The notes under the pieces were generated by a model. The model did not search any database. It was not told the DNA's origin and saw only the letters and a list, made by a program, of their open reading frames with translations. Below, one piece after another: positions 6,341-15,429 of a stretch of 29,603 nucleotides of DNA. Source of the stretch: a virus; IMG/VR virus record IMGVR_UViG_3300044705_000015, positions 1 through 29,603 of that record. One strand, given 5' to 3'. Positions within the stretch are counted from its first letter, which is position 1. Every line of letters begins with the position of its first letter. Position numbers and translations under genes: made by a program.

Positions 6341-6928
6341 CTAGTGCGTCGCGATCAGCGTCGCGACAGCTCCGAGAATTGCGGCCACAGCACCAATCCC
6401 GAGCACGCGCCCCAGGGTGAGCCGGTGTGCCTCGGCGGACGCTGAGCGTTGATCGCTAGCGAGCGCAGCTTGTGCAGCGTCGACCCTGCGCTGCTCCGTG
6501 CACTCGGTGTCTTTGACGGCGGCTAGCGCATCCAGTGCGACCTGCGCCTGCTCGGGGTAGTGCTCCCACTCCACGACGTAGACGTGCAGCGCGTGCGCCG
6601 TGTTGGTCGGGACCATGACGCCGCCGGCAACGCGCTGGGCGAGCGGCAGGCCTCGAGGGAGTTTTGGCGCAGGTGGCACGAGATGGAGCGACTCGACCCT
6701 GGGCGCGGGCGCTGTCGGATCGAGGTCGCGCTTGATTGCGCGCCAGTCAATCGTGTCCGCTGTTGCATACTTGGCGCACTCGGGGCCCTTCGGTCCAGCG
6801 CTCGGCCAGCGCTCGCAGACGATCCGCTCTAGCTCAGCGTTGCCCTGCTCGCGCGCCTGCGTCGGCGTCTGCTGGGCCCACGCGTTCGTTGAGCCAGTCA
6901 GCAAAATCAGCATCGCCACCAGTCTCAT
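6341..6928 (-). CDS. Secreted protein with C-terminal membrane anchor, next to the spanin
   Basis: 195 residues from the ATG at 6928; GAGG about 7 bases upstream favours this over an in-frame ATG at 6946. A signal peptide (RLVAMLILLTGSTNAWA, cleavage before QQ) and a C-terminal hydrophobic segment (LGIGAVAAILGAVATLIA) frame a periplasmic domain with Cys residues in IVCERW, PECAKY and DTECTE. It overlaps the upstream spanin-like gene by about 95 bp out of frame, as spanin pairs often do. There is no lipobox Cys, so it is neither a standard Rz1 nor a u-spanin. It may be an unusual spanin partner; otherwise unknown. It is the last gene of the late operon. Confidence 0.7.
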   Translation of the reverse strand: MRLVAMLILLTGSTNAWAQQTPTQAREQGNAELERIVCERWPSAGPKGPECAKYATADTIDWRAIKRDLDPTAPAPRVESLHLVPPAPKLPRGLPLAQRVAGGVMVPTNTAHALHVYVVEWEHYPEQAQVALDALAAVKDTECTEQRRVDAAQAALASDQRSASAEAHRLTLGRVLGIGAVAAILGAVATLIATH

Positions 6929-7169
6929 GCGCCACCTCGACTTCAACGTGCCGCGCGACCGCGGAGCGCTTGGCCGCGGCTTGTGTCTTCGCTTCCTTGA
7001 CTACCTCGGCACCGAGCTGCTCGGTGGTCGTCACAAGCTGCGTGTCCGCTTTCGTGGCCTGGGCCGTCTGCGTCGCTAGCTTGCGCTCGAATTGGCAGCG
7101 CTGGAACGCGAGGCCGCCGAGGAACAGCACGAGCAGCGAGCAGACTGCGATGGCGGAGGTGCGGCTCAT
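6834..7169 (-). CDS. Rz-like inner-membrane spanin candidate
   Basis: 111 residues starting at ATG 7169, which overlaps the endolysin stop (ATGA). An N-terminal transmembrane segment (AIAVCSLLVLFLGGLAF, about 6-22) precedes a charged helical/coiled-coil region (FERKLATQTAQATKADTQLV...), the layout of i-spanins that bridge the periplasm to disrupt the outer membrane at lysis. The C-terminal part, from about residue 80, overlaps the next gene in another frame and is Ala/Gly/Asp-rich. Position right after the endolysin supports the call. No family-diagnostic residues exist for spanins, so the identity rests on topology and position. Confidence 0.7.
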   Translation of the reverse strand: MSRTSAIAVCSLLVLFLGGLAFQRCQFERKLATQTAQATKADTQLVTTTEQLGAEVVKEAKTQAAAKRSAVARHVEVEVAHETGGDADFADWLNERVGPADADAGARAGQR

Positions 7170-7612
7170 GTATACGTCCGCTCCGGCGCACCGTCGAAGA
7201 TGTTCTTGCCGTCGACGAGGTACTCCCAGTGCCAGCGCTCGGATTCGACGGTGCGGTGAAATCCGAACTCATGCGCGCGGCGGCACATCCATTCGTACGA
7301 CGGCTCGTGGATGCCTTGCGTCTCGACGTCGACGGTCGTGCCGCACTGGTGGTTGGACCAGCCAGGGCGCGCGACGACAGCGTGAGGCCTGCCCTCGGCG
7401 AGCGCATCCTTGTACGCGCGATAGAGCGCGTCCTGTTTCGGCAGCGAGCGCCACCCCTGCGTCGCGACGATATCGACACCATCCGCTTTGGCGGCCAGAC
7501 GCATCGCGGTGAACGCGGCCGCAACAGGGCGGTGCAGCATGATGCCGTCGCCGACGTCGACGAGGTCGAGATGCACGATGCGCCCATGGCGCCATCCTGT
7601 CGCGGCGGTCAC
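7166..7612 (-). CDS. M15-family peptidase endolysin (VanY/L-Ala-D-Glu type)
   Basis: 148 residues from GTG 7612, overlapping the previous stop as GTGA; a longer frame exists upstream but would overlap the zinc-ribbon gene. The M15 zinc site is clear: SNHQCGTTVD gives His88 and Asp95, and ERWHWE gives His128 with Glu125 as the likely catalytic base. The TQGWRS motif (51-56) is also typical. Such enzymes cleave peptide bonds in peptidoglycan stem peptides during phage lysis. No signal peptide is seen, so a holin or other export route is needed. It sits between two small zinc/membrane genes and the spanin-like gene. Confidence 0.9.
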   Translation of the reverse strand: MTAATGWRHGRIVHLDLVDVGDGIMLHRPVAAAFTAMRLAAKADGVDIVATQGWRSLPKQDALYRAYKDALAEGRPHAVVARPGWSNHQCGTTVDVETQGIHEPSYEWMCRRAHEFGFHRTVESERWHWEYLVDGKNIFDGAPERTYT

Positions 7613-7905
7613 GCGTCCTCCGAATCGTCGTTGGCTCCAATGCGGTCGATGCGCTCGCGGACCGCGACCGACTCCGGGACAAACACGCACGACATGCGGC
7701 CCCATGTGCCAGTGCCCGCATGGATCGGCGTCGAGCACACTGGACAGGTCACCGCCTCGAATTTCGACTCCACGTAGACCGCAACCTCGATGCCGGTGCA
7801 GCCGCGCGGACACTCGAGACGCAACACCGACTCGACGCGCTCGATCGTCTCGCCGTCCGGGTTGGTGTAGCGCTTGCGGGCGCGGCGTTCGCGATTGCGG
7901 TCCAT
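7609..7905 (-). CDS. Zinc-ribbon hypothetical protein
   Basis: 98 residues from ATG 7905. A basic N-terminus (DRNRERRARKR) is followed by a zinc-ribbon-like pair: CPRGC at about 32-36 and CPVC at about 54-57, with the beta segment GIEVAVYVESKFEAV between. The C-terminal third is acidic (NDDSEDA). It starts 2 bp after the stop of the MshEN-like gene and overlaps the endolysin start. No function is recognised, but its place within the lysis segment suggests late expression. Confidence 0.7.
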   Translation of the reverse strand: MDRNRERRARKRYTNPDGETIERVESVLRLECPRGCTGIEVAVYVESKFEAVTCPVCSTPIHAGTGTWGRMSCVFVPESVAVRERIDRIGANDDSEDA

Positions 7906-7907
7906 CG

Positions 7908-8159
7908 TTACCTCGTCGCCACGCTGCGCGCAGCGGAGCGCATCATCTGGAGCACGGCCCGGGACTTGGCGAACAGCGACGGCGCCCGCATGCGCTGCTG
8001 CTCGCCGACGAAGATGCTCACCTTGTGCTCGTCAAGGATGCCGAGCGCCACGAGCGCTTCGCCGAATCGGCAGTTGTGCTCGAGCATGTGCGTTTCTGCG
8101 GACGCGGCTTGCTCCGCAGTGATCACACCGTGCGCGATGAGGAGCCGATCGAGCCTCAT
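7908..8159 (-). CDS. Stand-alone MshEN / GspE-N-like domain protein
   Basis: 83 residues from ATG 8159 (ATGA overlap). Residues 2-25 and 31-54 are two 24-residue repeats separated by 5 residues. The first begins RLDRLLIAHGVI, the second RFGEALVALGIL and ends VGEQ. This matches the known MshEN architecture (two 24-residue RLGxxL...GxI...Q motifs with a 5-residue spacer), which binds cyclic-di-GMP in some type II secretion and pilus ATPases. The first motif is degenerate: Asp for Gly at its third position and Met for the final Gln. The rest is a basic C-terminal helix (residues 56-83). No ATPase domain is attached. It lies among lysis genes. Whether it binds the nucleotide is untested. Confidence 0.7.
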   Translation of the reverse strand: MRLDRLLIAHGVITAEQAASAETHMLEHNCRFGEALVALGILDEHKVSIFVGEQQRMRAPSLFAKSRAVLQMMRSAARSVATR

Positions 8160-8446
8160 GTGATGATGCCCTTCGCGCGCAAACCGTTCTCGATGGCGGT
8201 CAACCGGTCGCTCGTGCGCACGTCGGCCTTGGCCTGCTCGAGCGCGACGTCGGCGCCTGCCTTGAGATGCGAGACGAGCGCGCGGATCAGCCAGAAGCAC
8301 AGCGCTCCGAGCGCGACGCAGCCGGCGAGCTCGATGATGGCAACGGCCTTGTAGCCGCCCTGGTCGAAGGCCTTCACCGCCTCGTCAGTGACCGCCTGCG
8401 GTACCTGCTCGAGCGCCACGCTCGCTATGGCGGACAGCGGGGTCAC
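8156..8446 (-). CDS. Single-pass membrane protein, holin candidate
   Basis: 96 residues from GTG 8446, which overlaps the previous stop as GTGA; a longer in-frame start at 8530 would overlap that whole gene. A hydrophobic segment at about 36-58 (AIIELAGCVALGALCFWLI) is followed by an amphipathic helix (KAGADVALEQAKADVRTSDR) and a basic end. One membrane segment plus a charged C-terminus would suit a single-pass holin or pinholin-type protein. Its place at the head of the lysis segment supports this, but the family is not recognised. Confidence 0.6.
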   Translation of the reverse strand: MTPLSAIASVALEQVPQAVTDEAVKAFDQGGYKAVAIIELAGCVALGALCFWLIRALVSHLKAGADVALEQAKADVRTSDRLTAIENGLRAKGIIT

Positions 8447-8574
8447 TGGATGCACGCCGTGAGCAGCAGGTAGCAACCAGCGATCACGCCGCCAGCTAGC
8501 GCGAGCGCATAGCAGTCCCAGCGACGACACTCGGTGCGCAGCCTGAGATCTTCATGTTCGTCGGGGGTCATCAT
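8443..8574 (-). CDS. 43-residue membrane peptide
   Basis: Starts at ATG 8574 in ATGA overlap with the end of the large ejection protein and ends overlapping the next GTG. A polar, charged N-terminus (MMTPDEHEDLRLRTE) precedes one membrane segment (YALALAGGVIAGCYLLLTAC) that reaches almost to the C-terminus. The LTAC at the end resembles a lipobox, but only two residues would follow the Cys, so lipidation would be pointless; a simple membrane anchor is more likely. It may be a lysis accessory or holin partner. Gene status rests on the overlaps at both ends. Confidence 0.55.
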   Translation of the reverse strand: MMTPDEHEDLRLRTECRRWDCYALALAGGVIAGCYLLLTACIQ

Positions 8575-13990: not shown

Positions 13991-14476
13991 TTAGAAAGCC
14001 CTCACCCAAACGTTTTCGATGGGCTCAAAGCCGAGAGCCGAGACAATCTTGCCGACGGCGCGCGCTGCCGCCGTCATAAGCGCGCCGGCCGCGATGCCGC
14101 GGCACCCGCCGGCCTTCGCCCACTCGCACGCAGCCGCGAAGAGCATGCCGGCGACACCGTTTTTGCGGTGCTCGTGGTCGCACCACACGAACATTTCCTG
14201 AGCCATGAGCGTCGTGGGTGCGAAGTAGACGGGCTGAATCGTCACGGCCAGGGCTCCGATCGGGCGGTCATCGTCGAGCGCTATGAACACTCTAACATCA
14301 CCTGCGCCCAAGTTTCCATTCAGTAGATTACACTGAATAGATTGATCGAACAGTTGGCCCATGGCCTCGATGTCGAGCTCTCCCCATTGCGACACACGGC
14401 CCTCGGCGTAGACGTCGCGGCACATCCGCAAGAACGCGTCGCGGTGCTCGGGCTGCGCATGGGTGACGGTGATCAT
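13991..14476 (-). CDS. GNAT-family acetyltransferase
   Basis: 161 residues from ATG 14476, which shares a base with the tail fiber stop (TAATG); an ATG at 14491 adds five residues. GNAT features are DDDRPIGALAVTIQP (strand with beta-bulge), FVWCDHEHRKNGVAGML (acetyl-CoA binding loop, Q/RxxGxG/A type) and a C-terminal AVGKIVSALGFEPIENVW strand-helix-strand. These enzymes transfer acetyl groups to amines. Similar genes occur among podovirus structural genes, where they may modify virion or host proteins; the substrate is unknown. The gene carries an AT-rich palindromic element at 14316-14344, unlike the rest of its sequence. Confidence 0.8.
   Translation of the reverse strand: MITVTHAQPEHRDAFLRMCRDVYAEGRVSQWGELDIEAMGQLFDQSIQCNLLNGNLGAGDVRVFIALDDDRPIGALAVTIQPVYFAPTTLMAQEMFVWCDHEHRKNGVAGMLFAAACEWAKAGGCRGIAAGALMTAAARAVGKIVSALGFEPIENVWVRAF
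14316..14344. repeat. Dispersed palindrome, site 1 (inside acetyltransferase gene)
   Basis: CCATTCAGTAG at 14316-14326 is followed by ATTA and then CACTGAATAG at 14331-14340. The half-site is identical to the right arm of site 2 (19702-19712) and differs by one base from that of site 3 (24976-24986). Arms here face each other in the opposite order. The AT-rich patch stands out in a GC-rich coding region. Confidence 0.6.
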
Positions 14477-15429
14477 TAGATTGTGATCCATTGCCTAACG
14501 GATGAGATTGTGACGGCCATGAGGCGCTTGGTCCCCCAGTTGGTATTGATGGTCTGCGTAAGCGCTCCGTCGATCAGCTCAGAGGCGTTCGCATCGATCG
14601 TGATGTTTTTCGTGGCGCCAGCGCCCCCGCCATCCTTGATCTGGATCTGATCCCCATCGGTCATATTGGCGATCGGCGGTAGCGTAATCGTCCGCGACGA
14701 AGATGGGCTCACCACCACCACGACCGCGTCGGTAGCCGCCATTGTGTAGTTGACGGTCGTGTATACCGGCGGCTCGCTTAGCCGCGCCTGAACAGTCGCA
14801 GCGGCAATCCGCATTAGCGCACCGGCCTGCTTGAATTGCAGCAGCGATGGCAGCGCGTCGCTGTTTACGAGCTGTGCGCCATTGCGCAGTATCAGCGGAT
14901 CGATGTTGAACGAAACGAACGACGTGCACCAATAGATGACCGCGACGTTGGCGAATCCAAGAAAAGGCAGACCTTGGTTGTTGTCGAACGCGAGACCGGC
15001 ATCAGGGCGCCCGGTAAAGCTATAGCCAGGATTCGCGGTGGCGTTTGCCGACAGACCGGCAACCACGGTGCCTGTGACGTCGAGATCGCCGGTGATCGTA
15101 TGGTCCGCTGTAACGTTCAGCCAGTCGAGCTTTTGCTTGTCGGCGGCGGCCAGGAATCCGGCGATAGCTGTTGTCGCCCCTGCATGGAGCGCTCCGCCCA
15201 ACAGATTGCCGTGCGCATGCGCGTGGTCGGCCCGCGCTGCGTCCGTGCTTGTCCCCACGACGGGCGCGCTCGACACCACGTCCGCCGGCGTCACGCTGGT
15301 GTCCAATGCTGCGCTCGTCGTGTTGACGCGATCGACGAGCTGCCGCAACCACTGCAAAAAAACACCGCTAAAACGGCCTTTGTCGCCGAGTGCCGCCATC
15401 GCATGGTTGAAGACCTGGAGCGCGCTCAT
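14476..15429 (-). CDS. Tail fiber / receptor-binding protein
   Basis: 317 residues from ATG 15429 (ATGA overlap). A short helical N-terminus (LQWLRQLVDRVN) would attach to the virion. A repetitive central part follows, with the His-rich ARADHAHAHGNLLGGALHAG, FLAAADKQKLDWLN and TGDLDVTGTVVAG, as in trimeric phage fibers. The C-terminus (SSSRTITLPPIANMTDGDQI, then INTNWGTKRLMAVTIS) resembles common fiber ends. It follows the gp10-like gene, where P22-type phages place tail proteins. No spike endorhamnosidase or depolymerase motif is recognised, so receptor specificity cannot be guessed. Confidence 0.75.
   Translation of the reverse strand: MSALQVFNHAMAALGDKGRFSGVFLQWLRQLVDRVNTTSAALDTSVTPADVVSSAPVVGTSTDAARADHAHAHGNLLGGALHAGATTAIAGFLAAADKQKLDWLNVTADHTITGDLDVTGTVVAGLSANATANPGYSFTGRPDAGLAFDNNQGLPFLGFANVAVIYWCTSFVSFNIDPLILRNGAQLVNSDALPSLLQFKQAGALMRIAAATVQARLSEPPVYTTVNYTMAATDAVVVVVSPSSSRTITLPPIANMTDGDQIQIKDGGGAGATKNITIDANASELIDGALTQTINTNWGTKRLMAVTISSVRQWITI

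Follow-up and report, generated by a model that had tools for sequence, protein, structure and literature searches.

The window analyzed here, the whole 29,603-nucleotide (29.6-kb) stretch of virus record IMGVR_UViG_3300044705_000015, encodes a P22-like head (portal, coat, terminase and head closure Hc3), with the relatives of the head-closure protein belonging largely to P22-like podoviruses. It also carries an integrase, so the phage is probably temperate; close to this gene, at positions 245-2343, a DnaJ-domain ORF precedes one for a ParB-like protein that has an HTH. Gene order runs from an acetyltransferase through ejection and internal proteins to the lysis genes. Pseudomonas phage PfAn1 has this order too, its acetyltransferase and internal virion proteins being followed by annotated holin, endolysin and Rz genes. 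The window's acetyltransferase is of the GNAT type (13991-14491) and is flanked by the tail/head-closure genes on one side and those for the ejection proteins on the other, a slot that an acetyltransferase also occupies in PfAn1.

The lysis genes are all encoded on the minus strand. A 43-aa ORF with one transmembrane segment (TM), a possible second small membrane lysis protein (8443..8574), shares a GTGA overlap with the gene for a 96-aa protein that has one TM and a charged C-terminal helix (8156..8446, GTG start at 8446), which we regard as the candidate holin; its TM scores 2.25 on the Kyte-Doolittle scale over residues 36-54, and a PHROG search with the protein returned no match. An ATGA overlap then leads into the gene studied here, which encodes the 83-aa protein P0001 (7908..8159). 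Next come a 98-aa zinc-ribbon-like protein with CPRGC and CPVC pairs and no convincing family match (7609..7905), and a 148-aa VanY-type endolysin of the D,D-carboxypeptidase fold (7166..7612; PF02557, 2.3e-18 on the longer ORF) whose GTG start at 7612 lies inside a GTGA overlap. A 111-aa Rz-like inner-membrane spanin candidate with an N-terminal TM (6834..7169; weak phrog_1152 match, E 0.05) follows through an ATGA overlap, and its gene is overlapped by that of a 201-aa protein carrying a signal peptide and a C-terminal TM (6341..6946). Judged by the endolysin, the weakly Rz-like protein, the coupled overlaps and the gene order of PfAn1, the P0001 gene lies in a phage lysis cassette, as the preliminary description had proposed; the operon is tightly coupled, and the phage is a P22-like podovirus. 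That description also placed the gene between a membrane protein and the endolysin, which is accurate for the upstream side, with the 98-aa CxxC gene intervening on the other.

The 83-codon ORF probably begins with the ATG at 8159, given the GAAGGG upstream, the ATGA overlap with the preceding gene's stop and the codon-position GC, which across a possible N-terminal extension gives a GC3 of 0.47 in the P0001 frame vs. 0.93 in the upstream gene's frame. Within the ORF itself, codon-position GC (0.67/0.44/0.87) is like that of the phage's other genes.

P0001 and the MshEN_N domain

P0001 consists of a domain at residues 2-54 and a basic C-terminal helix at about residues 62-81; it ends at residue 83 and the next gene is unrelated, so that, as first described, the domain and helix stand alone, with neither an MshEN_C nor a Walker ATPase domain. 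The published MshEN motif, RLGxx(L/V/I)(L/V/I)xxG(L/V/I)(L/V/I)xxxxLxxxLxxQ, occurs twice with a 5-residue linker (PMC5013675). P0001 reproduces this layout, with two 24-residue motifs separated by a 5-residue spacer (LEHNC) in a stretch that aligns without gaps to MshEN_N: motif I (residues 2-25, 8085..8156, minus strand; RLDRLLIAHGVITAEQAASAETHM) is degenerate, having the substitutions G>D, L>A, L>E and Q>M, and motif II (residues 31-54, 7998..8069, minus strand; RFGEALVALGILDEHKVSIFVGEQ) fits the published relaxed motif (RFG...V...V..Q).

The likeness to MshEN/GspE-N profiles that the preliminary description had foreseen was borne out in part. NCBIfam NF053729 (MshE-related c-di-GMP motif) matches P0001 over nearly the whole profile length (E 2.8e-6), at a score below the curated cut-off (27 vs. 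38 bits), and P0001 is its single match in a six-frame search of the whole record; Pfam PF05157 (MshEN) does not match P0001. Comparison by hhalign with a small MshEN alignment gave 97.1% probability over 55 gapless columns, against 0.1% for a neighbouring gene used as control, and in a phmmer search of the PDB, PilB and MshE rank first, at weak E-values (0.01 and 0.06). We also built a profile from seven MshEN sequences taken from the PDB phmmer matches and from phage-collection matches, which is not fully independent of P0001 because its CheX-fused seed was first met through a weak P0001 match. This profile scores P0001 at 36.4 bits, whereas 5,000 shuffled versions of its residues reach 11.9 at best; of 25,976 ORFs in 1.9 Mb of largely phage DNA, the only ones above 13 bits are P0001, the second-phage protein described below and MshEN proteins of bacteria. 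On these sequence comparisons, P0001 is an MshEN_N-type homologue beyond chance.

The closest point of reference is the MshEN_N domain of V. cholerae MshE (PDB 5HTL; NF053729, PF05157), to which P0001 aligns without gaps over 53-55 residues at about 29% identity, differing in that it lacks MshEN_C, the ATPase and the ligand residues of motif I and scores below the curated cut-off. Close homologues of P0001 were absent from the virus contigs, genome contigs and annotated phage collection searched. An Azospirillum plasmid match (7 bits, in a 327-aa frame) was attributed to chance, as were the three matches, in unrelated frames, that the virus contigs gave to a DNA pattern written for the motif II region.

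Two single-sequence AlphaFold2 models (pLDDT 77 and 82) break the helices at residues 10-14 and 39-43, which are the turns expected at the second glycine of each motif, and fuse helices 2 and 3, failing to reproduce the four-helix MshEN bundle. Foldseek found no confident relative for either model, the weak list for the first including PilF GSPII-A (E 6), and these models were left out of the evidence for the fold.

A second MshEN gene beside a one-TM protein in an unrelated phage

We additionally searched NF053729 against 109 virus records (2.9 Mb) that had been selected, without regard to MshEN, for similarity in portal, terminase or head-closure protein. This survey yielded one other convincing match, above the cut-off at 48.9 bits: a stand-alone 102-aa MshEN protein (L114:1402-1710, about 35.2-35.5 kb) in IMGVR_UViG_3300024520_000166, a myovirus-like record by its apparent tail-sheath and baseplate set, as read by eye from frames rather than by profile. 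There, a 94-aa one-TM gene leads into the MshEN gene through an ATGA overlap, and downstream a TM protein and a lipoprotein-like protein come before the Amidase_2 endolysin (E 6.9e-14). BLAST finds no similarity between the 83-aa and 102-aa proteins, indicating that the arrangement recurs, and the 96-aa and 94-aa one-TM neighbours neither align with each other nor match a holin profile. With both the MshEN proteins and their TM neighbours so dissimilar between the phages, the pairing would be either very old or the product of independent recruitment. Finding an MshEN gene at the same spot in two unrelated phages suggests that the domain is reused as a partner of membrane-lysis proteins; no frequency can be quoted from these two instances, since the records were picked partly by terminase similarity.

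Two weaker matches to the profile, one of 14.5 bits in Rhodoferax phage P26218 and one of 12.1 bits in record G053, fall in long unrelated frames and were rejected. The records of close terminase relatives, L022 (66%) and L034 and L035 (63%; the whole record of L035 is L120), stop short of the lysis block or lack it. Terminases of two other records (L023:3412-4968 and L024:5307-6731) match the window terminase at 42-45% over the C-terminal nuclease part only (query residues 336-554), their N-terminal ATPase half being apparently unrelated to the window's, a case of domain mosaicism.

The c-di-GMP site

At the ligand positions R L G G L L Q, motif I of P0001 reads R L D G A E M and motif II R F G G V V Q, so the residues R, L, G, L, L and Q, whose conservation in both motifs marks a c-di-GMP receptor, are incomplete. 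The preliminary description had noted that motif I lacks its Gly and final Gln; Gly3 and Gln24 are indeed absent, and to these must be added both cluster leucines (L>A, L>E). In V. cholerae MshE, substitution of Gly11 abolishes c-di-GMP binding, as does the loss of three cluster leucines together (PMC5013675). As the equivalent motif I Gly is Asp in P0001, with three further contact residues lost, c-di-GMP sensing is unlikely and the protein probably does not bind this nucleotide, judging from its residues. This agrees with the initial suspicion that nucleotide binding may be lost, and runs counter to the accompanying proposal that P0001 senses c-di-GMP to time lysis.

MshEN_N domains that retain the fold without binding c-di-GMP exist, such as those of XpsE (PMC5013675) and X. 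citri PilB (PMC8389850). In X. campestris XpsE/GspE and in X. citri PilB, the ND0 domain shares with P0001 both the MshEN_N topology and the loss of c-di-GMP residues, and differs in being part of an ATPase with ND1 and motor, whereas P0001 is an 83-aa phage protein.

In the 102-aa protein these positions are S V G G L L Q for motif I and Q L C H A L Q for motif II, so that each phage protein combines one good and one broken half-site while keeping the fold signature and spacer. This pattern leaves some room for a reading in which host c-di-GMP is bound, perhaps by a half-site dimer, and tunes the holin to host lifestyle. The fit of P0001 motif II to the relaxed motif and the nearly intact motif I of the 102-aa protein, changed only from Arg to Ser and from the first Leu to Val, would allow it, and PilF GSPII-B still binds tightly without the Arg (PMC11731258). 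The substitutions in P0001 motif I nevertheless include that of the Gly on which binding by MshE depends, together with both cluster leucines and the Gln, and motif II of the 102-aa protein has Cys in place of the equivalent Gly and His in place of the turn Gly, making such a sensor unlikely. That the fold signature and spacer are kept while one half loses its ligand residues instead favours a protein-protein role.

A possible role in lysis

We consider the best explanation, at a probability of roughly 0.4, to be that P0001 is a lysis-operon MshEN_N-type domain that docks on, or modulates, the adjacent one-TM candidate holin. A four-helix cytosolic domain of this type would have been split off from secretion/pilus ATPases and put to new use in a phage lysis operon, where it would dock on the cytoplasmic side of the translationally coupled upstream one-TM protein, the likely partner in view of its position, its coupling and the recurrence of the pair, and would modulate the timing or manner of that protein's action in the way of a cytosolic antiholin or holin chaperone. 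We infer that P0001 contacts the TM protein, that this neighbour is a holin and that c-di-GMP binding has been lost, and likewise the sign of the effect, which from gene position is possibly antiholin-like.

Cytosolic antiholin-type lysis regulators, e.g., T4 RIII, are small soluble proteins, and P0001 is likewise small and soluble, and is encoded beside a putative holin; to our knowledge the T4 lysis regulators are not of the MshEN type. For docking on a membrane protein, GspE offers a precedent in its contact with GspL, which is made through ND1/MshEN_C and not ND0/MshEN_N (PMC8389850), and which does not carry over directly since P0001 lacks ND1/MshEN_C. Against the lysis-partner reading we count that its two instances are both known from sequence alone, that the one-TM neighbours are unlike each other and any holin profile, and that the single-sequence models lack the MshEN bundle.

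The closest solved relatives of P0001 are the PilB/MshE N-domains, which could point to a competitor that displaces or poisons PilB/GspE assembly in the host, for superinfection exclusion or a pre-lysis envelope change, as might suit a probably temperate phage with an integrase. PilB-binding phage peptides are known, namely Tip and Aqs1 (PMC11656802), which like P0001 are small, helical, phage-encoded and linked to pilus ATPases; these bind the ATPase, whereas P0001 resembles a part of it and sits in a lysis cassette. We find this competitor improbable, as the gene belongs to a late, translationally coupled lysis operon rather than to the lysogenic genes, and the 83-aa and 102-aa proteins are too divergent for one obvious shared target. 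The preliminary description's idea that P0001 binds a host secretion or pilus ATPase gained no support from this analysis, and nothing in it spoke decisively against such binding. We likewise give little credence to a host-acquired domain that is merely decaying and has no lysis role: half of each ligand site is degraded and no collection searched holds a close P0001 homologue, but the ORF is intact, with strong codon-position bias, a ribosome-binding site, coupled overlaps and conserved helix turns, and an unrelated phage has an MshEN gene at the same position. A nucleotide sponge or anti-defence protein against cyclic-dinucleotide defence would draw on a fold class that binds such nucleotides, and is very improbable given the broken ligand site, the absence of a PADLOC match and the late lysis position, away from early anti-defence genes.

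Extending the lysis-partner reading beyond this phage, we tentatively propose, as a rather doubtful generalization, that phages have repeatedly recruited MshEN_N as a cytosolic lysis regulator acting with a one-TM holin-like protein, and that less degraded members may couple lysis to c-di-GMP. If two unrelated phages do use MshEN beside a holin-like protein, this would be a new sort of lysis partner, the pair exerting lysis control of an unreported kind, and the question of whether the lysis decision of phages heeds or evades host c-di-GMP could be put to a direct test.

MshEN domains are found in bacterial ATPases, glycosyltransferases and signalling proteins. Judged by titles and abstracts, the open-licence full-text literature contains no phage-encoded MshEN, and the papers that pair MshEN with phages appear, at that level, to concern the host receptor NfrB, pilus work or passing mentions. 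PHROG families give no convincing MshEN match (best E 0.05), nor does the annotated phage collection. Here a familiar domain occurs in a new setting that is apparently recurrent. The annotated-phage matches to an MshE query were rejected as bacterial PilB/GspE ATPases or a CheX-fused protein, all on unverified fecal contigs. Among them, the fecal "Bacteriophage sp." records MT836441, MT835655 and MT836798 (L027, L028 and L029) encode complete PilB/GspE-type ATPases and are therefore probably bacterial contigs, and MT836856.1 (L030:2415-3302), a phage deposit that is also probably bacterial, encodes a 296-aa protein with tandem MshEN-type motifs and, by eye, a CheX-like C-terminus.
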